From Fibrobacter sp. (lineage in GTDB: Bacteria; Fibrobacterota; Fibrobacteria; Fibrobacterales; Fibrobacteraceae): a stretch of 64,000 bases of DNA. Each line of letters begins with the position of its first letter. The stretch's first letter is position 1. Made by a program: the position numbers and the translations under genes. The notes below the pieces were generated by a model. The model did not search any database and was not told the origin of the DNA. It worked only from the letters and a program-made list of their open reading frames with translations. Where the stretch lies: positions 124,001 to 188,000 of the forward strand of contig JAKSIC010000001.1 of NCBI GenBank assembly GCA_024399015.1, given 5' to 3'. Below are positions 748 through 61,328 of this stretch, in pieces.

Positions 748-1749
748 TTACTGGATTTGGTCAACCGGGAAGAGAACGCTCATACCAGGGCGGAGATTTT
801 CAACTTTTTCCTTCGGACGGAGGCGAACTTCGAAAGACTTGAGATCGAAACCGCCACTTTCCTTGGAGCTGCGCCAGGTTGCGTAATCACCTACGGAAGC
901 AATGTAAGTCACTTCCATATCCACGTGCTTGTCCAATGCCGGAATGAACATGTTGAAAGTCTTGCCCTTGGAAACATTCTTCAGCATATCTTCACGGAGG
1001 TGGAAGACTGCCCAGGAATCATCAAGGTCAGTAATTGCGACAACGGGCATGCCGGAACCAACCACTTCGCCTTCTTCAACAAGCTTGACGGAGACTTCGC
1101 CTGCAATAGGAGCACGAATCTTGGTTTCTTCGAGGTAAGCATCCACTTCGGCATTAGCACCGCGAGCTTGCATCACGAGAGCTGCGGCAGCAGCCTTGTC
1201 TTCGGAACGAGCACCTGCGAGAGACTGATCGTACTGAGCGCGGGCAGCGTCTGCAGCGGATTGGGAAGCTCTCATCTGAGTTTCTGCTTCGTCGCGCTTC
1301 TGCAACGGGAGCACGCCTTCATTATAAAGTTTCTGTACACGGTCGTAGGTATTCTTTGCGAGGTTTGCAGCTTCCTGAGCACGGTCAGCCATAGCCTTCA
1401 AAGCAGTCACGTCTTCGGAGCGAGCGCCATTCTTAGCCTTGTTTGCCTGTGCGCGAGCGGCACCAAGAGCACCCTGGGCCTGAATCTTCTTTGCTTCAAT
1501 TTCCGGGCTGCTGATGACAGCAACGATCGCACCCTTGGTCACCATGTCGCCTTCATGGAAGAACAAACTTTCCACACGGCCAGGCACCTTACCGGCAACA
1601 AGAACGCGACGAGCTTCCATCTGCCCCTGCAGATAAGCCTCGCGAGGCTCCGTAGCAAACTTTTGCAGTGTAGTGATGCCAAGAACAATCAAGGCAATCA
1701 AAGAAAGAATGACTAAAATCTTGCCAATAACTTTAAGAACTTTAAGCAT
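748..1749 (-). CDS. HlyD/MFP-family periplasmic adaptor of an efflux pump
   Basis: 333 residues. An N-terminal signal-anchor (about residues 5-28) is followed by the first half of a barrel-sandwich domain (GKVPGRVESLFFHEGDMV), a long alanine-rich coiled-coil hairpin (about 85-200) and the returning half (IRAPIAGEVSVKLVEEGEVV). A C-terminal beta-barrel part ends in LRPGMSVLFPV. This is the classic membrane-fusion-protein layout that joins an inner-membrane transporter to a TolC-type channel. AGGAG lies 7 bases before the ATG. It sits between the channel gene (12-base gap) and the ABC-2 permease, so the three probably form one pump. Substrate not predictable. Confidence 0.9.
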   Translation of the reverse strand: MLKVLKVIGKILVILSLIALIVLGITTLQKFATEPREAYLQGQMEARRVLVAGKVPGRVESLFFHEGDMVTKGAIVAVISSPEIEAKKIQAQGALGAARAQANKAKNGARSEDVTALKAMADRAQEAANLAKNTYDRVQKLYNEGVLPLQKRDEAETQMRASQSAADAARAQYDQSLAGARSEDKAAAAALVMQARGANAEVDAYLEETKIRAPIAGEVSVKLVEEGEVVGSGMPVVAITDLDDSWAVFHLREDMLKNVSKGKTFNMFIPALDKHVDMEVTYIASVGDYATWRSSKESGGFDLKSFEVRLRPKEKVENLRPGMSVLFPVDQIQ

Positions 1750-1761
1750 AATGAACTCCTA

Positions 1762-3606
1762 TTAATTTTCAGATGCGGGGGTAGTAGATTCAACGGAAGT
1801 TTCTGCTGCGGGTACAGCTTCGACGGAAGCAGGCTCTGCGGGAGCGGAGGCGGCGGCCTCTGCGGGAGCAGTTTCTACCGCAGGAGCGGATTCAGCAGAA
1901 GCGTCTGCCGGCAGAGCGGCTGTGGCAACTGCATTTTCAGTTGCAGGCAGAAGCACCGGAGTGGTAGCGGGAGCAGTCACAGCGGCATCCTGCCTCACTT
2001 CTTCAACAGGCTGAACGGCACTCAGCATTGCACCAGCATTCACAACTTCGCCGCTAGCTTCCAGCAAGCCAAGCCATGCAATAACGGCGTCATAATGAGC
2101 TTTCAAGTCGCCCACCTGCAAACGAGCCAAAGACAACTCAGCATCAACAACTTCCAAGCCAGTAGCAAGACCTGCTTCGTAAGCCAAGGTCTGGCTACGA
2201 AGAGCTTCTTCTGCAAGTTCACGAGTCTTGTTCAAACTGGTCAAACGACTCATGGCATGTTCCTTTTCTCGCCAACGCTTTTCCACAAGCAGCTTGATGT
2301 TGTCCAAAGTGCTTTCTTCCATATTCAGAAGAGAACGATCCAAAGCCTTTGCGTTTGCAACCTTGGAACGAGTTTCACCACCCTTGAACAAATCCCACTG
2401 AAGCTTTGCGCCTACAGCCCATTCCGGTTCCAAAATGGTCAAGTCCCTCGTATAAAGTTCCTTATAAGCGAACAAGGCAACCATCGGATAATAATCACCT
2501 TGAGCAGCCTTCACTGCGTTCTGGCTACGCTTACGTTCAGTACGCAACTGCTGAAGACCCGGATGACGCTCAATAGCCAAGGACTTGAATTCTTCCATAG
2601 TCGGAGTCTGTTCCGGAGCAAGAACCGGAGTCACAGCAGTCAAGTTGGTATCGGTATGCAAAAGACTAGCCAAGGCCATACGAGCCAAGGACTGGTCACG
2701 GTAGGAATCTTCCAAAGCGTTCTGAGCTTCAGCCAAGGCAACTTCAGCGCGGAGGCGTTCAGCCTTACTAATCTGACCACCGGCTTCCAATTTCTTGGAA
2801 CGTTCCAAATGTTCTTCAAGATTCTTCTTGGTCGTTTCGCGCAATGCAGTCAATTCTTCGGAAAGGCGCAAAGTGAAATACTTTGTAGCCACATCCATCA
2901 AGACTGTATTTTGAGCCATTTCGAAAGCGGCCTTCTTGGCAGTCACATTTCCCTTGGCGGCATCATAGGCTGCAGTACGCTTGAAACCAGTGAACAAGGG
3001 CCAAACAGCGGTAAGACGAGCGTTGAAGAACACGTCGTCCTGAACCTTCATCTTGAAATCCTTGGACTTTTCAATTTCCTTGGAGGCGTTTTGACCATAC
3101 TGGTCTGCAACCAGCTGAGCCTTGTCATTCACATCCTTACTGGAAACGACTCCACTCCAAATGGTGGCGGCATTTTCGTCCAATGTTTCCTTAGCCTTAG
3201 ACTTGGCCACTTCCTCGGGCAAACCCATACCCATCATCTGGTTTACGGCATTTTCATACTGGCTTTGATAAACCTGACCATAAGCCTGGTTATAGACAGA
3301 CAGATAAGCCTTCGAATAGGCGGCTGCGCCGGCAATATCACTTAGGGGTGCCTGAAGGGAACTCAAATCAATCGTAATAGGATCATTAATCTTTGTAACA
3401 CTGGCAGACAGGCTCAACGACGGCATAAAACGGGACAAAGCCTCAGATTCCTCGCTTTCGGCAATTTCCACTTTGGCCCTTTCGGACTTAATCTGGGAAT
3501 TGCTGGCCTTGGCCATATCCAAGGCGTCTTGCAAGGTGATTGGTTTTGCGAACAAGGGTGTTGCCACCGTAATAACAGAAATCAGGGATGCACAATACTT
3601 TTTCAT
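1762..3606 (-). CDS. TolC-family outer-membrane efflux channel, enlarged
   Basis: 614 residues, against about 450 for the family. A cleavable signal peptide (MKKYCASLISVITVATPLFA) precedes ITLQDALDMAKASNSQIKSERAKVEIAESE, the usual start of the first OEP repeat. The second repeat begins near residue 340 (SLAIERHPGLQQLRTERKRSQNAVKAAQ, split here for length). Two oddities: an extra stretch of roughly 100 residues in the first repeat (about 95-200, Tyr/Gln/Ala-rich then charged), and an Ala/Pro/Glu/Thr-rich low-complexity tail over the last 80 residues. First gene of the efflux operon. A promoter with three in-phase repeats lies upstream. Confidence 0.88.
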   Translation of the reverse strand: MKKYCASLISVITVATPLFAKPITLQDALDMAKASNSQIKSERAKVEIAESEESEALSRFMPSLSLSASVTKINDPITIDLSSLQAPLSDIAGAAAYSKAYLSVYNQAYGQVYQSQYENAVNQMMGMGLPEEVAKSKAKETLDENAATIWSGVVSSKDVNDKAQLVADQYGQNASKEIEKSKDFKMKVQDDVFFNARLTAVWPLFTGFKRTAAYDAAKGNVTAKKAAFEMAQNTVLMDVATKYFTLRLSEELTALRETTKKNLEEHLERSKKLEAGGQISKAERLRAEVALAEAQNALEDSYRDQSLARMALASLLHTDTNLTAVTPVLAPEQTPTMEEFKSLAIERHPGLQQLRTERKRSQNAVKAAQGDYYPMVALFAYKELYTRDLTILEPEWAVGAKLQWDLFKGGETRSKVANAKALDRSLLNMEESTLDNIKLLVEKRWREKEHAMSRLTSLNKTRELAEEALRSQTLAYEAGLATGLEVVDAELSLARLQVGDLKAHYDAVIAWLGLLEASGEVVNAGAMLSAVQPVEEVRQDAAVTAPATTPVLLPATENAVATAALPADASAESAPAVETAPAEAAASAPAEPASVEAVPAAETSVESTTPASEN

Positions 3607-3829: not shown

Positions 3830-5470
3830 CTACTTACCCGGAGTCGGATTAGCAGCCTTCCATGCAGACGGGCCAAAACCCATGGTAGTCAGGTCTGCGC
3901 GCTGGAGACTGAATCCTGCGCCATCAGCATCGGTAAGACCGGCCCAAGCATCAGAATAGAGGGTTGCATCGTGCCAAGTATAGTAATACTTAGTTTCATT
4001 TGTTTCCGAGTCTTTGGTACTAGTGTACGGTTCCTTAATAGCGATTGTTTCACCGCGGTTGGAAAGTTTACCGTTATAAGAGAAAATCTGGACGGTTTCA
4101 GGAATATTATAGCTCTTGCGAACCAGTTCCGGACCCCAGCCAGCAATTGCAACATCTTCCAGAGTTGCAGGAATCAAGAGAGCCTTGGAATTTGCCAGAA
4201 GAACATCGGTTGCACCAAATTCAATGTTGACACCTTCAATCTTCCAACCCTTTTTCAAAGAGGAGTTGTACAAAGGAATATTAGCTGCGGTCGCATTTAC
4301 GATTTCCATGAATTCAAAAGGCAAAGCGCCCTTTTCGTCCGGATGGTAATGGATTTCGCTGATGTAGACAGAGCCCAGCTTAAGGGCAGAATTTGCAGCG
4401 CCCGGTGTAGCCATAGCCAAGGGACCTTGAGCTACAGAACCATCGGCAACATCAACAACACCGCTAACGCCCTTACCGGCCGGCAACCAGATACTGGATT
4501 CCTGACCTTCAGCCAAGCCATACAAATAGATTTCACCACCCTGGTCGGAAACTACGACTTCCTTATCGAAGTCACCACCTTCACCACCGTCCAAAACGAG
4601 GTAGCCACCGGCAGGCACGACTGCACCAGCATTAACCTTTATGGTATCCTTACGAAGCTTCACATTCAAAGTCCAGCCAGAAACATCCACCGGAACCGCA
4701 CCAGAGTTGTAGAGCTCGATCCAAGAACCTTCATAAGTTCCTGCGGCAGAGAATGAGGGCTTGACTTCGTTAATACGCACCGTGTTCACAACATCAATGC
4801 AAGCGTCTTCACCTACGCCGGGATTTCCACCAGGATTAGCGCTAGCACACCAGGAGACAGACTGGGCGGCAATACCACCGGTATAAACCAGGGAATGTCC
4901 CTTACCGTCGGCAAGGCTAGGCCAAGGAGGTTCGCTACTAAACGCGCAGGTCACGTCGCCCTCGCCACGGACCTTGACATTGACCACACCACCTTCATTG
5001 ACCATCTTGCCTGTCATATTTCCAAAAAGGCGGCCAGCGAATGTGGGATAGGCTTTCTTAAACAAAGCTTCATTGTTGGTCACTACCACATACTCACCCT
5101 TTTTCAAGGGTTCGGCAGGGAAAGTAAAGTCCACATCACCGCTCAGATGCAGGGTGAAGTTCTGCATGTTATCCATATCCATGCCACCAGCGATATAGAT
5201 TTCCACCCATTCCAGGGTATCACCCTTGGCGTTGTTATACATAATTTCGGAACAAGCCATCTGGGGTTCATCGGTGTTCTTCATGGAAGAACTGGAAACC
5301 AGAACGCCATTGCCCTTGGAGCTGGAGGAATTACCCCCGGACACCATACCGGAAGATAGAGTAGGATCATCCGGTCCTACGGGATTTTTCGGCTCGGGAT
5401 CCGAGCATGCAGACACCAAGGCCAGCATGGAGGCGCTAGCGCCAATAGTCAAAATCTTTTTGATATCCAT
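3830..5470 (-). CDS. Surface lipoprotein with lamin-tail (LTD) domains
   Basis: 546 residues from the preferred ATG at 5470; another ATG nine bases upstream directly abuts AAAGGA, while this one has AAAGGA at normal spacing. The lipobox LVSAC puts the lipidated Cys at 22, followed by a Ser/Gly/Asn-rich linker. At least three LTD-like beta-sandwich units follow: about 70-180 (CSEIMYNNAKGDTLEWVEIY), 225-340 (RINEVKPSF, GSWIELYNSGAVPVDVSGW) and 365-480 (VYISEIHYHP, FEFMEIVNAT). LTDs are known as adhesion or substrate-tethering modules on secreted bacterial proteins. It is the last gene of the DUF4956-HlyD-TolC-VTC operon, 24 bases after the VTC gene, and probably sits on the outer membrane. Exact role unknown. 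Confidence 0.85.
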   Translation of the reverse strand: MDIKKILTIGASASMLALVSACSDPEPKNPVGPDDPTLSSGMVSGGNSSSSKGNGVLVSSSSMKNTDEPQMACSEIMYNNAKGDTLEWVEIYIAGGMDMDNMQNFTLHLSGDVDFTFPAEPLKKGEYVVVTNNEALFKKAYPTFAGRLFGNMTGKMVNEGGVVNVKVRGEGDVTCAFSSEPPWPSLADGKGHSLVYTGGIAAQSVSWCASANPGGNPGVGEDACIDVVNTVRINEVKPSFSAAGTYEGSWIELYNSGAVPVDVSGWTLNVKLRKDTIKVNAGAVVPAGGYLVLDGGEGGDFDKEVVVSDQGGEIYLYGLAEGQESSIWLPAGKGVSGVVDVADGSVAQGPLAMATPGAANSALKLGSVYISEIHYHPDEKGALPFEFMEIVNATAANIPLYNSSLKKGWKIEGVNIEFGATDVLLANSKALLIPATLEDVAIAGWGPELVRKSYNIPETVQIFSYNGKLSNRGETIAIKEPYTSTKDSETNETKYYYTWHDATLYSDAWAGLTDADGAGFSLQRADLTTMGFGPSAWKAANPTPGK

Positions 5471-5503
5471 AAGAGACATCCTTTGCAGAGTATTTTCTCT
5501 ATA

Positions 5504-6334
5504 TTACAAATTTTCTTCCAACGTAGTTCCAAGCTTTGTCCAATAAGGGGTCTTGAAACGGCGGGGATTTTCATAAACACGCTGCCATTCAGCGGCGGCA
5601 TTGCCAAACTTGGAGAATCCGCCCTGCTTAAGGTTCAGGAATCGGATCAGATCGATCATCCAGTAGGGCACCTGGGAACAGGGACACTTCAGTTCCAAAA
5701 CAGCATCGCAACCCGGCAAGAAGAATCGGGGGATACCGGTGGAATGCATGTAGTGGGGATCGACAGTGTAATCAAAGCCATTTTCTTCGCGAAAACGCAT
5801 GCCAGTATCGATGGTCACGCGGGAATATTCTTCGCGGAGACCGAACCATGCGCGACGCTTATACTGTGTCAACAGACGGGGATGTGCACCATGCAATTCA
5901 GTCTTGTACAAGAAATCCTTAAGGTACTTACGATCCTTTTCGCCCTTGCACGGCCATTCGTCCGGTTTCATGTTCCAGACTTCACCAGGGTTGATGCCCT
6001 TGATGGTGGCGCGGCTCTTGTAGCAAATGCTCTTGATCTTACGCTTCACTTCAAAATGGAAGGTTCCATCCTGAGCAGGATGTTCACCGTAAGTACGGAT
6101 ACGCATGTTGAAACGATCCAGCAACTGACGTTTTTTCCAGCCAAGGAACGTCCACGTGGGGGTATCCAGATAGAGGTTGGTAATCCAGTAGAAACCACCC
6201 GGAGTAATTTTGGAGTAATAGTCTTCTTCGCAATACGGAGCAATGAAGGCGCCAATCTTGTCGGCCCATTCCACAGGAATGTGGTACTTCAACTCGAAGC
6301 GTTCGAGAAGACTAAATCCGCGGGCTTCAGCCAT
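5504..6334 (-). CDS. VTC-domain (polyphosphate polymerase-like) protein
   Basis: 276 residues covering one VTC domain of the triphosphate-tunnel superfamily; the yeast Vtc4 domain makes polyphosphate from ATP. The tunnel residues look intact: E14/K16 in FELKY, R78/R80 in MRIRTYG, E95/K97 in FEVKRK, K106/R108, R160/R161 in QYKRRAW, R172 and D176 in RVTID, E214/K216 in LELKC. There is no signal peptide or membrane segment, so it should be cytoplasmic. The start (GAGGTAATATG) overlaps the region of the TolC-like gene's stop codon, implying tight translational coupling with an export channel. That polyphosphate is the product is inference; another nucleotide-derived polymer or transfer reaction is possible. 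Confidence 0.85.
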   Translation of the reverse strand: MAEARGFSLLERFELKYHIPVEWADKIGAFIAPYCEEDYYSKITPGGFYWITNLYLDTPTWTFLGWKKRQLLDRFNMRIRTYGEHPAQDGTFHFEVKRKIKSICYKSRATIKGINPGEVWNMKPDEWPCKGEKDRKYLKDFLYKTELHGAHPRLLTQYKRRAWFGLREEYSRVTIDTGMRFREENGFDYTVDPHYMHSTGIPRFFLPGCDAVLELKCPCSQVPYWMIDLIRFLNLKQGGFSKFGNAAAEWQRVYENPRRFKTPYWTKLGTTLEENL

Positions 6335-6335
6335 A

Positions 6336-7715
6336 TTACCTCAAGCCCTTCTGCAGATGATTCTGCACACCTTCGGCACCGAGAACACCAGCGTATTCAA
6401 GCAATGCAAGGTAGCGGGTAAAGATATCGTTTTCCAACTTGATTGCTCTCAAGTCGCTTTCAAGAGCGCTTTCACGAGCGCGGAGCAAAAGCAGCGGATC
6501 GGAACCGGCGTTCTTAGCAAACTGTTCAAAGATGGAGCCGGCATTAACCTTTTCCACAAATTCCTTCTGAACCTTCCACTGTGCAATCAAGGCATTGATT
6601 TCATCAACCAACTTGGTAACCTTCTGAGAGACATCACGGAAGTCTTTCATATAGTCACCTTCAGCATCAAGTTCAGCAACCTGAGTCTTCAAGTCGGAAT
6701 CCTTATTGCTGTCAAAGAACGGAAGACGGAATGCAAGGTTTGCAAAGAACTTGTCGGAAGTCTTGCGGTTGTCAACGTCCGGAATCAGAACGCGGGCAGT
6801 AGCGGTACAACCAAGCTGGCTTACGCAACCAGTCTGCTTTTCAAACTCGCCCCTGTAGGCATCATAGGAGCCGGTACCATAAATGTCATAGGCATCCAAG
6901 TCCTTGTACTTTTCCATCAAGGATTCAATCTTCAAGGAATAGCCAATGCCGATATGGGAAATGTAGTCGCGGCTCTTGGAGGCATCCTGCTGGATCTTGG
7001 ACTTTTCAGACTTCATCTTGCCAGCAGCCATTGCAATAGCCGGGAAGGTTTCGTTAATTTCAAGACCGCCTTCCAACTGAGCAGCAACTTCGTCCATGGA
7101 AGGAATCCAGGTGGAGTCCAGTTCAACGCCGTCAAAATCCGGAACCCAAAGTTTGAGTTTCGCTTCGGCATTCAGTAAGGATGCGCTATCGGTCATCATT
7201 TCTGCGCGGAGGGAAGCTTCCTTTTCCAAAGAAGTCATCAAATCCTGGGGATTGAAAGTTGCAGAACCGGCCTTCATGTGGAGAACTTCGATGCGGTCGG
7301 AGTTGACCTGGTAAAGTTCCTTGTTCAACTTGGCAATACGCTGACGATTGATGTAGTGAATGGCGCGATCGTAGCGGTCATACAGAAGTTCTGCACGGTC
7401 TGCGATAAGGTGAGCCTTCTGGTAGGCAACCTGGGCTTCCCAGTGAGCCTTGTCTGCGGAGCCCTCACCAAAGCCCTTCGGCGTAATGCGGAGTTCAAAA
7501 TCATGCTGAGCGAAGCTGAAGCCATCGAGTTTGTAGCGAAGCTCCAACTTGTCCCAAAGTTTGGTATTCTGTCCGGTGGAGGTCATTTCTGCACGTTTCT
7601 GCGCAGCCTGGTAACGAGGGTCGTTATCCACGGACTGAATCAACTGTTCCCAGGTAAGGGGGCCAGCAAACGCAGCGGCAGACAATGCTAAGGTTACCAA
7701 TCCAAACTTTTTCAT
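6336..7715 (-). CDS. TolC-like outer-membrane channel protein of the VTC operon
   Basis: 459 residues. A signal peptide (MKKFGLVTLALSAAAFAG) is followed by LTWEQLIQSVDNDPRYQAAQ, the start of an OEP-type repeat. Long alpha-helical coiled-coil stretches rich in K, E and A follow, and the second half (FRLPFFDSNKDSDLKTQVAE) resembles the second OEP repeat. It is divergent from the larger TolC-like protein at 1762-3606. AGGAAG lies before the ATG. It sits between the HlyD-like adaptor (56-base gap) and the VTC gene (1-base gap), so it probably forms the outer-membrane exit of the system. Annotation as an outer-membrane efflux protein is reasonably safe; its cargo is unknown. Confidence 0.78.
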   Translation of the reverse strand: MKKFGLVTLALSAAAFAGPLTWEQLIQSVDNDPRYQAAQKRAEMTSTGQNTKLWDKLELRYKLDGFSFAQHDFELRITPKGFGEGSADKAHWEAQVAYQKAHLIADRAELLYDRYDRAIHYINRQRIAKLNKELYQVNSDRIEVLHMKAGSATFNPQDLMTSLEKEASLRAEMMTDSASLLNAEAKLKLWVPDFDGVELDSTWIPSMDEVAAQLEGGLEINETFPAIAMAAGKMKSEKSKIQQDASKSRDYISHIGIGYSLKIESLMEKYKDLDAYDIYGTGSYDAYRGEFEKQTGCVSQLGCTATARVLIPDVDNRKTSDKFFANLAFRLPFFDSNKDSDLKTQVAELDAEGDYMKDFRDVSQKVTKLVDEINALIAQWKVQKEFVEKVNAGSIFEQFAKNAGSDPLLLLRARESALESDLRAIKLENDIFTRYLALLEYAGVLGAEGVQNHLQKGLR

Positions 7716-7771
7716 AAATACTTCCTAAAACTTTTTTATTCGAATTAACTTCTCGAAAAACACACCCGAAA

Positions 7772-8839
7772 TTATTCGGAGATAGTCACCATTTCACCCA
7801 ACAGGAACGGGTTTTCTTCAGGAATCTGAATGATGACTTCGCGACCATGAATAGGCATTTCCGGCATCTTCCACATACGCATGGGGAATTCAACAATACG
7901 GCTGGAGAGGCCAACGACCTTGCCCTTGATTGCCTTGCCGGTACCACCCAGAGTGCGAACCTTCACGGTTTCGCCAACGTCCATACGCTGGTACATACGT
8001 TCGTGAATGTAGCCACGAACGAGAGTCGGAGACTTATGGGTCAAGGTAACAACCGGAGCAAAGCTGGAGAGTTTTTCACCATCGCGAGCATTGACAGAAC
8101 CAACAACCCAGTCTTCCTTGGCTATCTGCACCAATTCTTCCTGCTGCTTCTGGAGTTCAGCCAATTCCTTCTTGAGGTTTTCGACTTCAGTCTTGCCAGC
8201 GCTCTTCTGCAAACGACCGCTGCTCTTGAGGAGCTTTATCTGTTCATTTGCATTGGCCTGGAGAACAGCGAGTTCGTTCTTCAAGCTCTTGATGCGCATT
8301 GCCATGGCGTCGTTGCCATCGCTCTTTGCATCAGAATTCTTAAGGCTCTTAAGCTTAGCAGCAATTTCCTTATTCTTCTGGTATTCGGTTTCCAGGTTGC
8401 GAATTTCAGACTTGAGGGCGAGACTGCGGGAAGCAAGATCGGCCTTGACCTCAGCAACTTTCTGGTCAATTTCAGCATTGGACAAGTCGCTGCGACCTTC
8501 GCTAGCGTCAAGTTCGCGGGTAAGCTCTGTAATACGAAGGGTAAGGTCCGGACGGTTCAATTCAACGATGGTATCACCAGCGTGAATGGACTGACCAGGC
8601 ATCACGTGAACCTTGACAACTTCAGTGGGGCTCGGCAAGCTGATAGTAGTTTCGGTAGCTTCGGCAATTCCCTGGAACATGGAGGCCTTGCCGGCGAACA
8701 TAATGCCAAGGACAATAACGATAAGGATGCTAAGGCACCAGGCGTAAATCAGCTTGTGTTTGTAAGCGTGAGCTACACCAGGATTGGTCTTGTGCTTATT
8801 CCAAAAAGTATCGAGAGCGTCTTCAAACTTGTTCATCAT
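7772..8839 (-). CDS. HlyD-like membrane-anchored adaptor of the VTC operon
   Basis: 355 residues. A short cytoplasmic N-terminus precedes one membrane segment (about 30-50, LIYAWCLSILIVIVLGIMFA). A split lipoyl/barrel-sandwich domain (VVKVHVMPGQSIHAGDTIVE near 75-95) encloses a coiled-coil hairpin (about 100-235). The C-terminal barrel contains VRGYIHERMYQRMDVGETVK. The family links inner-membrane components to TolC channels. Two adjacent ATGs exist; the second (8836) has the better GGGAG spacing. The gene lies 8 bases after the DUF4956 gene and before the TolC-like gene. No ABC, RND or MFS partner is encoded in the operon, so DUF4956 is the only candidate inner-membrane partner here. Confidence 0.82.
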   Translation of the reverse strand: MMNKFEDALDTFWNKHKTNPGVAHAYKHKLIYAWCLSILIVIVLGIMFAGKASMFQGIAEATETTISLPSPTEVVKVHVMPGQSIHAGDTIVELNRPDLTLRITELTRELDASEGRSDLSNAEIDQKVAEVKADLASRSLALKSEIRNLETEYQKNKEIAAKLKSLKNSDAKSDGNDAMAMRIKSLKNELAVLQANANEQIKLLKSSGRLQKSAGKTEVENLKKELAELQKQQEELVQIAKEDWVVGSVNARDGEKLSSFAPVVTLTHKSPTLVRGYIHERMYQRMDVGETVKVRTLGGTGKAIKGKVVGLSSRIVEFPMRMWKMPEMPIHGREVIIQIPEENPFLLGEMVTISE

Positions 8840-8847
8840 CTACTCCC

Positions 8848-9531
8848 TTACATTTCGGTGGTTGCATCTTGCATCATGAACTGAACGTCGGAGATGCCTT
8901 CAATTTCAGAAAGTTCTTTCAAGATTTCTGCAGCCGGCTTAGTTGCACGGAGACGAACCTGGTAGGCGCAATCCACACGAGCGCCACCATCCACCTCACG
9001 CATTGTGATTAGGATGTAGGTCTTTAGACTTTTTCGAAGGACATCTTCGATTTGCTGACGGGGAGCAGATTCGTTGGGAAGAGCGAAACGAAGCATGCCA
9101 TCAAAGAAATGCTTGGTACCGAGACCGGTACGGGAAATGAGGAAGGCAACAATGCAGAATGCAATGGTACCACCGAGAGCCGGGCCCCAAGCATAAACAC
9201 CGCAACCGATACCTGCGCCAAGGGAGGCGAAGATAAACATGATGTCGCGAGGATCCTTAAAGCTGGTACGGAAACGGACCACAGAAAGTGCGCCCATCAT
9301 ACCGAGGCCGCGGCCAACGTTATCACCGATAGCAGCCATCACCATGGCGGCGACCACAGAGCTCAACACGATGCCCTGCACAAAATTTCTGGAGTAAGAA
9401 AGACCAAGGAACGTCTTTTCGTAGGTCCAAGCAATGGTGGAAGAAAGGATGAAGGCCAAGATAAGGGTATAGGCCAGAGTGATGAGAGATGCGTTGGCAG
9501 TACCAGACTGTACCGCTAAAAGATCGAGCAT
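8848..9531 (-). CDS. DUF4956 integral membrane protein
   Basis: 227 residues. The N-terminal two thirds holds about four membrane segments (approximately 15-37, 47-68, 95-112, 113-133). A conserved polar stretch, GRGLGMMGALSVVRFRTSFKD, lies between them (given over residues 73-93) and is followed by PRDIMFIFASLGAG. The last third is soluble and ACT/ferredoxin-like in pattern (TYILITMREVDGGARVD). This matches DUF4956, a family I remember as frequently adjacent to VTC and CotH genes in bacterial genomes. GGAGA precedes the ATG. It is the first gene of the VTC operon, and its conserved charged loop could form a channel or sensor for the polymer. Molecular function is not established. Confidence 0.85.
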   Translation of the reverse strand: MLDLLAVQSGTANASLITLAYTLILAFILSSTIAWTYEKTFLGLSYSRNFVQGIVLSSVVAAMVMAAIGDNVGRGLGMMGALSVVRFRTSFKDPRDIMFIFASLGAGIGCGVYAWGPALGGTIAFCIVAFLISRTGLGTKHFFDGMLRFALPNESAPRQQIEDVLRKSLKTYILITMREVDGGARVDCAYQVRLRATKPAAEILKELSEIEGISDVQFMMQDATTEM

Positions 9532-9650: not shown

Positions 9651-9671
9651 GCAGTTTTGGAACAAAACTGC
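9651..9671. promoter_or_regulatory. 21-bp perfect palindrome upstream of the VTC operon
   Basis: Two 9-base arms, GCAGTTTTG and CAAAACTGC, are separated by GAA. The site is 120 bases upstream of the DUF4956 start and 57 bases after the BatB stop. There is no convincing T-run on either strand, so an operator for a dimeric regulator is favoured over a terminator, though a BatB mRNA 3' hairpin is possible. Confidence 0.45.
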
Positions 9672-42121: not shown

Positions 42122-42182
42122 TTTGCAAAATATAAAACCAACATCAACAAAATTAGAAAAAAGAAATTTCTATTTTGAAAAT

Positions 42183-43415
42183 ATGCAACATTTGTTGGTA
42201 ACTCTAGCCTTTTGTCTCCTTTGTTGTTCCTGCGTTTGGAACGATACGGACGAAGATTTAGACTACCTTGTTATGGACGACTCTGAATATCCTTATGCGG
42301 AAATTCCAAGGATTGTTATTGAAACCGAACATTTTCAGCAGATTCGTGATCGCGAAACACAAATTCCAGCCCGTTTGCAGATCTATGGAGAAAAAGGTCC
42401 CGAGAGCGGAATCCTTGATTTAACTGTTCGTGGTCGCGGCAATTCCAGCTTTACCGGGATGTCCAAATGGAGCATCAAACTTAAATTCAATAAAAAGCAA
42501 GAAATGCTTGGAATGCCAAAGGATAAGGAATGGGCACTCATTGCAAATTCTGCAGACAAAACATTGCTAAAGAACTTTATTACATACAAACTCGCTTGGT
42601 GGCTCGGTGACGAATACTCCCCTAGATCGGAGTTTGTGGAGCTCTATCTTAACAGAAAGTACATGGGCGTTTATCTGTTAACAGAAACTGTGAAAGTCAG
42701 CGAAGATCGAGTAAATATTCCCGACTCCGAAAACAGCTATCTTCTGGAACTGGGATCCACCCCCAAAGAGGGTGAAATCCACGTAATTACTAGGTCTGGA
42801 ACCAATTTTGCCATTAAGCATCCCAAGGATATCTCCGACTCTTCCAAGGAATTTCTAAGGAACAAATTGACCCATTGGGAATACTACCTTCACGACCAGA
42901 ATTTCAATGCCGACGAACCTGTAGACTATTGGCTTGACGTAGAAGATTACCTAAGGTATTACTGGATTCAGGAACTTTCCAAGAACATAGACGGAGCATT
43001 CCGCCGAAGCATTTTTATTACCTGGGCAAAAGGTGAAAAAATCAAGTTGGGACCCGTTTGGGATTTTGACATGGCCTACGGAAACTGGGAGGCCGACACA
43101 CTGCGAACTGTCACCGACTGGTACATAAAACCTTCTGGCTGGAACGAGCGTTTGTTAACGGATTCTGTCTTCTGGCAGCGAGCCGTTTCCTACTGGAAAG
43201 ACCATCACGACTTCATCGAAACCTTAAACGATTCCATCGATGTTTACGCCAAGGAACTGAGCCCTGCCACAAAGAACGAATTCAAGCGGTGGCCCGTATT
43301 GGAAAATACAGAGAACTGGACTTACAAGGAAGTCTACAAGACCTACGGCGAAGCCGTAGATTCCTTAAAGAGCTGGATTTCGCAGCGTATTAATTGGATT
43401 GACAAGAACCTGTAA
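42183..43415 (+). CDS. CotH-kinase family lipoprotein
   Basis: 410 residues from the ATG at 42183; an ATG 60 bases upstream would add a charged stretch before the signal peptide, so it is unlikely. The lipobox is LCCSC (Cys17). The CotH kinase domain covers about 65-405, with TVRGRGNSSF, KWSIKLKFNKK, MPKDKEWALIANSADKTLLKN (split at the Lys for length) and the metal-binding VWDFDMAYG. CotH enzymes are protein kinases that act outside the cytoplasm. Here it should sit in the periplasm or on the outer membrane. The 3' end overlaps a convergent glycosyltransferase gene by 26 bases. Substrate unknown. Confidence 0.9.
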   Translation: MQHLLVTLAFCLLCCSCVWNDTDEDLDYLVMDDSEYPYAEIPRIVIETEHFQQIRDRETQIPARLQIYGEKGPESGILDLTVRGRGNSSFTGMSKWSIKLKFNKKQEMLGMPKDKEWALIANSADKTLLKNFITYKLAWWLGDEYSPRSEFVELYLNRKYMGVYLLTETVKVSEDRVNIPDSENSYLLELGSTPKEGEIHVITRSGTNFAIKHPKDISDSSKEFLRNKLTHWEYYLHDQNFNADEPVDYWLDVEDYLRYYWIQELSKNIDGAFRRSIFITWAKGEKIKLGPVWDFDMAYGNWEADTLRTVTDWYIKPSGWNERLLTDSVFWQRAVSYWKDHHDFIETLNDSIDVYAKELSPATKNEFKRWPVLENTENWTYKEVYKTYGEAVDSLKSWISQRINWIDKNL

Positions 43416-58484: not shown

Positions 58485-61328
58485 CTACTTGAAAACGGCT
58501 GTTAAAGACGGAATTTCCTCGGGATTTACCACTCGAATTTGATCTAGGACACCATCATCCCATCCCGCCCAAATTTTTCCAGCATCAGGGACTGCTGAAA
58601 CAACAACGGGTAGTCCTTTAAAGAAGTTCACCGAAATCGGGAATCTATCTATCGGCAGACCATGAACAAGAATAGAACCACCACCATTTACAGACAACGT
58701 AACAGAAGCTATTTCATCCAATTTAAAGAATTCCCTCATTTCCCGTACAATTACACCTGGGCGATTCTTGGCAAAAATCTTGATTGTTTCCAATTCATCA
58801 TTCATGTGAGAGCTGCTGTGGCTCCAGCGTTTCTGATCTCTAGATATTTCAGCAGAAATTGCAGACATCAACGTATTTATTCTTGCACTGACACGAGATG
58901 TTTCAAAATTCATAGATAACAAAGTCGTCATTCTGTTCACAAAGGCCAACTTGAAATTTTCATTTTCCAGCAACCTTCGCAGCAGCAAAGTAGAATTGGG
59001 TCCATTGGGCCAAGCATCCGCAGAGCCCTCAGCATTTGTAGCAAACTCAAAAATGTTATTCGAATATTCGCTATAAGTATTTCCAAAGCCGAAATCAGTA
59101 TCGTAGATAAACCATTTCCATAAAGTATTCTGCTTTGTATTACGCCATTTCTTCAAATTATTGCTAGGCCAGTCGCGATTGTTCACAAACATTTCCAATT
59201 GCACATAATTCATGAAGTTGTCAACATCAATTTGACTAGCAACTTTCGCATAGTTTTCTTCACTATCAAGATGATTGGCATCCAACCAATCCATTAATTG
59301 CTGATATTCCACAGAAGATCCATTTGAAGCAGAATTATCTGCCTTCAGCAAATCAATATCATCCGGCTCCATACCATAATGGGTTTCAAAATAGTATTCG
59401 GTTGCACGTTCGCGAATATTATGAATTCCATAATATTCACCATTGTAATACACGACAGAAGCGCGACCACGTTGGTAATCAACACCGAGGCCCTCACTAA
59501 TGGAACTTGCCAACATATCACGGATATAGTCATTGGTAAAATTGCTGCCGTTGTTTCGCAACACAAACACCTTAAACTTTTTCAACTCCGGAAAATCCGG
59601 GAAAAGTTGATATTTCAATCGTTTGTTACCATACTTTTCTCGGAAAGTAATAGCAACGGATTTTTTCCCATTTGCTCTACTGTAATTGCCAAAAATTTTA
59701 AATCCGGCATTTTCTGCAAAAGCAGGTTGAGCAGTTCCCTTTTCAATAAGTTCCACAAAAATGGGCAGTTCTTTGTCTTCCCAATAATTAGCGCCATAAT
59801 GAGGTTCCGCAGAAGACGCATTGGGACCATCCATATAAATTCCAGTATCAGGATCAAACAAAGATTTAGGATCACCAGTAAGAAATACAGCAGGCAAAGT
59901 CGGAACATTTTCAAATACGTAGGTTCTGTTCGTCACTTCACCAGGAATAGCTCCCGGCGCAAAACTTGCGCAGCGAACAACTTTGGTTGAAGAAACATTC
60001 AGTTGCGTCATCAACGGGCTCTGAGCCGAAGGTTCTGCGCCGCCCATTTCGCAACGAATATTTTGATCCTGCGGAAGAGTAACTACAAAGGCGGTTGAAT
60101 AAAATCCTGAGGGAGGAAATTCAGCCAACGAATCCAGGGATGGCGAGCGCATTCCATTCACAAAGTTCGAGGCCAGCGCATTGGGGCTTGGATCTGCATA
60201 CCCCCAGCCAACATTATCAGCAGCTGTAGACAAGCTATCTGCAAAGAATCCGTAAGACCAGCTTTTTCCCGCAGGAACATCCTTGTAATCTACGGATGCC
60301 ATAATGCCGCCAGCAGCATTCATAAGATAAAGGCTGCCAGGAGCATTCTTTATTTTGAAGGAAGCATGGGGTTCATGACCTCGATTGCGAGCAATGTAGG
60401 AGAAAGCCTTGAAAGTCACTTCTTTTCGTTCATTAGCTTCCGGACTGAATCGGGTGCCATAAATATTTTCAAGGTCTGGAAGGCTCTTTCCTTTCGGAAG
60501 CAAAAAACGATATACAGTAGAGGAGTCCCCCGTTCCCGTCAATACCGTTTCATAGCCTTTCCAATCGTCAAGTCCTGCCTGTACCAAGCGCAAGGAGATT
60601 TTGCGATCCTTGGTAATGTAGGCATTCAAAAGAACTTCATTGGAATTGGACAAGTCCACAACATCGGATTCAGATCCACTTTTAGCACCCACAAAATCAG
60701 AAATAGAAGTCCACCCTAGTTCTTTATTTTCACCAAACTGCATTGTGGCACCAAAACGGCGAATCCCATTTTCGGTAAAACAGAGATTCTTTTTCCCTGG
60801 TAAATTCTTTGTGGTACTTTCACCCGGAGGATCTTCATTCTGGGAATCAGTCCATGTCCAGCAACCATTGCCCGCAAGATTCACCGTGTCCGACGGAGCA
60901 ACGTAATCAGGATAATTCTTTTCAGAAAGATAGATGAGTAAAAAAGACAGAGGCGGAATAACAATCTTTCCCAATTTCCATTTTTGAGGTTCACTCAAAG
61001 AATTGGTCAAGTACATTCCCGTAAGATTTGCAGGTTCCGAACTCGTATTATAAAGTTCAACCCAGCCAGCATCTCCTCCTTCGTGATCTTCGTAATCCAG
61101 ATTTACAGGATCCACTTCAGTAAACATCACGGGACCACCCACAAAAGGATGCTTTAAGGTATCTACTTTTTCGTTATCTGTTTGGTTTTCTGAACCAGGA
61201 ACTACAACTTCCGATACGGATTGATCAATGACAGCATCACCACTGCAGGATACAAGAGAACATGTCAAAAACGCCGTGCAATAAAAAAGAACACGGCAAG
61301 GCATAACATTTCTCTTGAAGATTTTCAT
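58485..61328 (-). CDS. Lipoprotein fusing lamin-tail, beta-hexosaminidase-C-like and CotH kinase domains
   Basis: 947 residues. Lipobox SLVSC (Cys28). An LTD lies at about 68-180 (VMFTEVDPVNLDYEDHEGG, AGWVELYNTS). A CHB_HEX_C-like beta-sandwich precedes residue 490 (PPSGFYSTAFVVTLPQDQNI, NRTYVFENV). The CotH kinase domain covers about 495-800, with FKIFGNYSRANGKKSVAITF, RNNGSNFTNDYIRDM and the metal-binding WKWFIYDTDFGFG. The C-terminal 75 residues resemble an InlB-type repeat (VVVSAVPDAGKIWAGWDDG). It is probably a surface-tethered kinase. It physically joins LTD and CotH modules that occur singly elsewhere in the window. Confidence 0.88.
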   Translation of the reverse strand: MKIFKRNVMPCRVLFYCTAFLTCSLVSCSGDAVIDQSVSEVVVPGSENQTDNEKVDTLKHPFVGGPVMFTEVDPVNLDYEDHEGGDAGWVELYNTSSEPANLTGMYLTNSLSEPQKWKLGKIVIPPLSFLLIYLSEKNYPDYVAPSDTVNLAGNGCWTWTDSQNEDPPGESTTKNLPGKKNLCFTENGIRRFGATMQFGENKELGWTSISDFVGAKSGSESDVVDLSNSNEVLLNAYITKDRKISLRLVQAGLDDWKGYETVLTGTGDSSTVYRFLLPKGKSLPDLENIYGTRFSPEANERKEVTFKAFSYIARNRGHEPHASFKIKNAPGSLYLMNAAGGIMASVDYKDVPAGKSWSYGFFADSLSTAADNVGWGYADPSPNALASNFVNGMRSPSLDSLAEFPPSGFYSTAFVVTLPQDQNIRCEMGGAEPSAQSPLMTQLNVSSTKVVRCASFAPGAIPGEVTNRTYVFENVPTLPAVFLTGDPKSLFDPDTGIYMDGPNASSAEPHYGANYWEDKELPIFVELIEKGTAQPAFAENAGFKIFGNYSRANGKKSVAITFREKYGNKRLKYQLFPDFPELKKFKVFVLRNNGSNFTNDYIRDMLASSISEGLGVDYQRGRASVVYYNGEYYGIHNIRERATEYYFETHYGMEPDDIDLLKADNSASNGSSVEYQQLMDWLDANHLDSEENYAKVASQIDVDNFMNYVQLEMFVNNRDWPSNNLKKWRNTKQNTLWKWFIYDTDFGFGNTYSEYSNNIFEFATNAEGSADAWPNGPNSTLLLRRLLENENFKLAFVNRMTTLLSMNFETSRVSARINTLMSAISAEISRDQKRWSHSSSHMNDELETIKIFAKNRPGVIVREMREFFKLDEIASVTLSVNGGGSILVHGLPIDRFPISVNFFKGLPVVVSAVPDAGKIWAGWDDGVLDQIRVVNPEEIPSLTAVFK

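Follow-up and report, generated by a model that had tools for sequence, protein, structure and literature searches.

We analysed a stretch of 64,000 nucleotides from Fibrobacter sp. (contig JAKSIC010000001.1; "the window" below), in which an operon at positions 3830-9531 encodes a VTC (polyphosphate-polymerase-like) enzyme together with an adaptor and an outer-membrane channel. The five open reading frames (ORFs) of the operon lie on the minus strand and are separated by gaps of 8, 56, 1 and 24 bases. In the direction of transcription, they encode a DUF4956 membrane protein of a divergent kind, referred to here as type B (8848-9531; PF16316, 4e-12), a HlyD/EmrA-like periplasmic adaptor that has a single hydrophobic helix at its N-terminus (7772-8839; HlyD_3, 2e-9), a divergent outer-membrane channel with a predicted TolC fold (6336-7715), a triphosphate-tunnel enzyme of the VTC family that is 276 amino acids (aa) long (5504-6334; PF09359, 9e-30) and a lamin-tail-domain (LTD) lipoprotein (3830-5479; LTD, 4e-26, in three stretches), which carries the lipobox LVSAC at its N-terminus. 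An intrinsic-terminator-like hairpin on the same strand, with an 11-pair stem followed by a T run (3803-3777), ends the operon. An earlier note made from the letters of this DNA had assigned these families to the five genes, the TolC-like channel and the VTC enzyme included, and had placed a terminator at the end of the operon; each of these assignments held up in our analysis. No ABC, RND or MFS gene and no glycosyltransferase synthase gene is present in the operon, and an Rfam scan of the operon region returned no match.

The PF09359 match of the VTC enzyme scores 104 bits against a cut-off of 23. When the Protein Data Bank (PDB) was searched with a profile of 15 relatives, eight sequences were retrieved, all of them VTC subunits, with yeast Vtc4 as the best match (1.6e-7). 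In the alignment, R78, R80 and E214 of the window protein correspond to R264, R266 and E426 of Vtc4 (numbered as in full-length Vtc4, 8i6v, by counting by hand along the alignment), the three residues changed in the R264A/R266A/E426N mutant, a catalytically impaired form of Vtc4 (PMC9911596). Other aligned pairs are K97/K281, K106/K294, R160/R361, R172/R373, K216/K428 and K242/K458 (window/Vtc4). As can be seen from the alignment, R78, R80, K97, K106, R160, R172, E214, K216 and K242 are invariant in all 15 sequences. Judged by its sequence, the window protein is thus a true VTC relative that has kept the catalytic residues. The VTC domain is its sole identified domain; the SPX domain and the Vtc transmembrane domain are absent, and no signal peptide is evident. 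The genome contains one VTC gene. Neither PPK1 nor PPK2 was detected in this genome, which leaves the VTC enzyme as its sole identified candidate for a polyphosphate synthase. Two further observations concern VTC genes elsewhere. The gene of Desulfamplus magnetovallimortis (L074:12290-13107; loci are cited by their L numbers) reads as two ORFs of 101 and 164 aa, which points to a frameshift or a sequencing error. PPK1 is found in 21 of the 32 Fibrobacterota genomes without VTC and in 30 of the 136 with it (Fisher p=6e-6, uncorrected for phylogeny).

Comparison of profiles by hhalign places type B and canonical DUF4956 in one family (97%). In a structural model of the membrane protein, about five N-terminal helices, predicted with low confidence, precede a C-terminal domain that is similar to ACT domains. 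If the positively charged loops are placed on the inner side, this C-terminal domain would face the cytoplasm, beside the VTC enzyme. DUF4956 may be a pore, a gate or a sensor; the modelled ACT-like domain is as compatible with a regulated component of the membrane as with a pore. Homology of DUF4956 to MgtC (PF02308) was considered and rejected (hhalign probability below 1%, from shallow alignments).

All 12 aligned relatives of the window adaptor match HlyD families, and the HlyD profile matches EmrA structures (1.6e-5). The adaptor is of single length in Fibrobacter. Most relatives outside this genus have a tandem double HlyD of 590-750 aa or two tandem HlyD genes (L032, L033, L035, L040, L041, L074, L077, L084 and others); the double form fits an adaptor made of dimers. 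By sequence, the window channel matches OEP weakly and under the cut-off (0.005), and OEP is matched in 12 of 21 members of the channel family, at best with 3e-7. An AlphaFold model built from the alignment of 21 relatives reached a pLDDT of 83, and all 44 PDB matches that Foldseek returned for it at E <= 0.001 are outer-membrane factors of the TolC/OprM/CusC type. The channel is accordingly predicted to have a TolC/OprM fold.

Upstream of the operon lie the BatA/BatB genes, set apart by a hairpin at 9651-9671, between BatB and the operon, that is terminator-like on both strands. The next genes downstream encode a second adaptor and channel, HlyD2 and TolC2 (748-3606). We rejected the possibility that they belong to the same operon, for a terminator-like hairpin lies between, and among the surveyed loci they are neighbours only in relatives of the genus Fibrobacter. 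HlyD2 and TolC2 belong to a separate pump; in the close relative L050, the HlyD2/TolC2 genes are followed by an ABC-2 permease. The operon channel was also tried as a sequence-profile relative of TolC2 and gave no match; its identity came from the fold.

The earlier note had proposed a survey of DUF4956-VTC neighbourhoods. We scanned type B DUF4956 against named genomes and kept the best 80 of 317 relatives. The quartet of DUF4956, HlyD, TolC and VTC genes is complete in 73 of the 80 fetched loci, the remaining seven being at contig ends, and LTD or CotH is also present in 68 of the 73 complete loci. Hosts of the quartet are Fibrobacterota, Desulfobacterota, Delongbacteria, Calditrichaeota, Nitrospirales and Bdellovibrio-like bacteria. 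They include Desulfamplus, Desulfonema magnum, Desulfoluna and Desulfatirhabdium, as well as metagenome-assembled genomes (MAGs) labelled Delongbacteria, Calditrichaeota, Nitrospirales, Oligoflexia and Halobacteriovoraceae; in a MAG labelled Planctomycetota the locus is cut at a contig end. Both CotH-DUF4956-HlyD-TolC-VTC and CotH-HlyD-TolC-VTC-DUF4956 orders occur, and because gene order differs among loci, the association goes beyond mere inherited synteny. HlyD-TolC and TolC-VTC most often overlap by one base. The recurring neighbours identified at 27 diverse loci are two-component regulators and, twice, a gene of PPDK_N type; no transport motor was identified among them. The earlier note had pointed out the absence of an ABC, RND or MFS motor from the operon, and the recurring neighbours identified at these 27 loci agree with it; conservation of the adaptor and channel with VTC and DUF4956 across phyla was borne out.

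These results bear on the simplest alternative, namely that an ordinary drug-efflux or type I secretion pair, with a motor borrowed from elsewhere in the genome, came to lie in the operon by chance as its adaptor and channel. The resemblance of the adaptor to EmrA and the presence of a second HlyD/TolC pair just downstream are in its favour. However, the same type of HlyD/TolC pair accompanies VTC and DUF4956 in phyla far apart, in varied gene orders and with overlapping genes, and the channel has no profile match to TolC2. The conservation of the quartet largely refutes this explanation, and we regard it as very improbable.

Further genes flank the quartet in particular lineages. Although L134 and L076 come from unrelated lineages, both have, immediately upstream of the core, genes for related proteins of 647 and 696 aa (L134:2060-4000 and L076:5801-7888), and the one in L134 contains PPDK_N, the ATP-binding domain of pyruvate-phosphate dikinase. 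In two Bdellovibrio-like lineages, the gene immediately after VTC is a related one whose product has 1109 aa (L097:12729-16055 and L099:12469-15795); its copy in L097 has no Pfam match.

A link overlooked by the earlier note is that to CotH kinases, two of which are encoded in the window itself. These candidate partners are a CotH-kinase lipoprotein (42123-43412, plus strand; CotH, 2.8e-35) and an LTD + CotH-kinase lipoprotein (58488-61328, minus strand; CotH, 5.5e-40; LTD, 7.5e-8), the first with a lipobox at its N-terminus and the second likewise with a lipobox. The LTD domain fused to CotH in the latter resembles that of the operon lipoprotein. There are nine CotH genes in this genome, at least seven of them with a lipobox. 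Because of these lipobox signals, the CotH kinases are predicted to lie outside the cytoplasm, where ATP should be absent. In six Fibrobacterota relatives, a CotH-cluster gene is located upstream of DUF4956 (L032, L038, L039, L040, L041 and L043; in L039 one gene intervenes), and in many Desulfobacterota loci CotH is a direct neighbour of the quartet or one of the genes within it (e.g., L084, L087, L092 and L169). The operon-linked CotH of L032 (PF08757, 1e-56) aligns with Bacillus CotH (5jd9, 1e-15), the FD and PWD.D stretches included. A single-sequence PDB search with the window protein 42123-43412 gave no match.

Genome-wide counts agree with this neighbourhood. VTC is present in 136 and DUF4956 in 133 of 168 Fibrobacterota genomes. 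Both VTC and CotH were found in 134 genomes, VTC alone in 2, CotH alone in 8 and neither in 24, so that CotH accompanies VTC in 134/136 genomes and occurs in 8/32 of those without VTC (Fisher p=4e-20, uncorrected for phylogeny); of the eight genomes with CotH only, several are below 90% completeness. The corresponding numbers for 395 Desulfobacterota genomes are 8, 5, 2 and 380, i.e., CotH in 8/13 genomes with VTC and in 2/382 without it (Fisher p=4e-12, uncorrected for phylogeny). The latter co-occurrence is the more telling, since both genes are rare in Desulfobacterota and usually stand side by side. CotH is a frequent rather than obligate partner of the quartet. The link ties the system to extracytoplasmic phosphorylation, a connection that is better supported than the alternative of phosphate sensing. 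Beside the core of a Fibrobacterota and a Calditrichaeota locus, arylsulfotransferase-like proteins and proteins with an FGE-sulfatase domain are encoded together with CotH (L032:1117-4318 and L094:4993-8534).

VTC-DUF4956 loci are of two types. In type B, as here, a divergent DUF4956 (about 40-57 bits) and VTC are ~3 kb apart, and HlyD and TolC lie in the interval. In type A, a mostly canonical DUF4956 (131-177 bits) is directly beside VTC, and HlyD and TolC are absent. Nine type A loci of Fibrobacterota (L054-L058 and L061-L064) share a conserved gene that is usually right beside DUF4956 (in L061, beside VTC). Its product matches Porin_O_P, the family of phosphate-selective porins O and P, in 8 of 9 members, at best with 1.4e-5, and most of the Fibrobacterota VTC-DUF4956 loci examined that lack HlyD/TolC carry such a gene. 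OprO of Pseudomonas is a pyrophosphate-specific porin (PMC9769906). The porin-like gene suggests that types A and B solve the same problem, and that both may serve to carry a phosphate compound through the outer membrane.

We propose the following mechanism. The cytoplasmic VTC enzyme, docked on DUF4956 in the inner membrane, would make a phosphate polymer from ATP, most likely polyphosphate. Growth of the chain would push the polymer outward, as has been proposed for the yeast VTC complex, with DUF4956 as a possible inner-membrane pore, and the HlyD adaptor and the TolC-fold channel would take it through the periplasm and the outer membrane. At the surface, LTD and CotH lipoproteins would bind the polymer, which may serve the CotH kinases as a phosphoryl donor where ATP is absent. 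Synthesis-driven conduction of this kind explains every conserved part: the tunnel enzyme, its membrane partner, the motorless adaptor and channel and the surface proteins that handle phosphate. We hold synthase-driven polyphosphate export across both membranes, with a possible role as donor for surface CotH kinases, tentatively and at somewhat less than even confidence. The stricter version, in which a motorless tripartite conduit driven by VTC is a dedicated polyphosphate exporter and polyphosphate is the phosphoryl donor for the surface CotH lipoprotein kinases, is doubtful.

Several points weigh against polyphosphate export in the service of CotH. Tunnel-fold enzymes include triphosphatases, from which a polymerase cannot be told by sequence alone, and since the two share the fold, polyphosphate is a product that we infer. 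The predicted ACT-like domain of DUF4956 suggests regulation, and the transmembrane part of the model is weak. The Porin_O_P matches of the type A gene are marginal, and its profile hit no OprO or OprP structure. In this genome, CotH lies outside the operon, at distances of about 33 kb and 49 kb for the two window genes. The quartet occurs without CotH in Nitrospirales and a few others (e.g., L134), from which it follows that feeding CotH cannot be the whole function. Finally, our literature search found no biochemistry for any bacterial VTC-DUF4956 system.

Some of the same facts favour other readings. Exported polyphosphate might serve the surface itself, as a capsule-like or metal-binding layer or as a phosphate store, with CotH and LTD proteins as separate surface modifiers. 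Quartets without CotH (L098 and L100 of Nitrospirales; L134) are what one would expect in that case, as is the fact that LTD lipoproteins alone complete the operon in Fibrobacter. Adjacency to CotH and genome-wide co-occurrence with it in two phyla speak against it, and we consider it unlikely. A marginally stronger candidate, still rather unlikely in our judgement, is that the conduit exports another cargo (for example, a protein or glycan, or else a nucleotide or a small phosphate compound) and that VTC and DUF4956 power or regulate it, for example as an ACT-gated phosphate or nucleotide sensor. The ACT-like domain is consistent with such a role, as are the arylsulfotransferase and FGE genes grouped with CotH and the core (L032 and L094) and the position of CotH-VTC-DUF4956 genes next to Gram-positive Pel polysaccharide operons (PMC7112168). 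However, the recurring neighbours identified at the 27 diverse loci are two-component and PPDK_N-like genes rather than transport motors, and VTC has retained the residues that polymerase activity requires.

The cassette of CotH, VTC ("poly-phosphate polymerase") and DUF4956 is known as a set of accessory genes of Gram-positive Pel operons, with function unproven (PMC7112168), in line with the earlier note, which calls co-occurrence of DUF4956 and VTC a known but unexplained pattern; CotH is also found together with VTC genes in NELoc-2 of C. perfringens (PMC2879425). No description of the conduit-bearing version was found in our literature search, which covered few subscription-journal papers, and this version appears to be undescribed in the literature searched. 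Nor did the search turn up a tested function of DUF4956 in bacteria, a dedicated polyphosphate exporter or a phosphate donor for extracytoplasmic kinases. The system bears on two questions: how bacteria place polyphosphate outside the cell, and what donor is used by kinases outside the cytoplasm. Four co-conserved genes and a kinase partner make both directly testable. If the proposal is true, proteins or glycans outside the cell are phosphorylated without ATP, and the yeast idea of synthesis-coupled polyphosphate translocation extends to a two-membrane envelope.

The operon shares features with several known systems. With the yeast VTC complex (Vtc1/Vtc3/Vtc4; PMC9911596) it has in common a tunnel enzyme that is homologous to Vtc4 and contains the same catalytic residues, and synthesis proposed as coupled to membrane passage. 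Unlike the yeast complex, it lacks SPX and the Vtc transmembrane domain, DUF4956 would be the membrane partner, and there are two membranes to cross. The adaptor and TolC-fold channel are those of tripartite HlyD/EmrA-TolC exporters and of type I secretion, and the tandem double HlyD of many relatives fits a dimer-built adaptor; in the window system, however, the enzyme and DUF4956 stand in place of an ABC, MFS or RND motor. As in synthase-dependent export of exopolysaccharides (alginate, Pel and cellulose), synthesis would drive a polymer through a dedicated envelope conduit, but the synthase is VTC rather than a glycosyltransferase and the conduit is HlyD/TolC. The closest parallel is with the Gram-positive Pel-linked cassette, in which VTC and DUF4956 are adjacent and a CotH kinase is a neighbour, as in relatives of the window operon; in the window itself, VTC and DUF4956 are in one operon and no CotH gene is adjacent. 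The type described here differs in that it occurs in double-membraned bacteria, adds HlyD, a TolC-fold channel and an LTD lipoprotein, and has no Pel genes. The best explanation of the operon is that it is a double-membrane version of the CotH-VTC-DUF4956 cassette.

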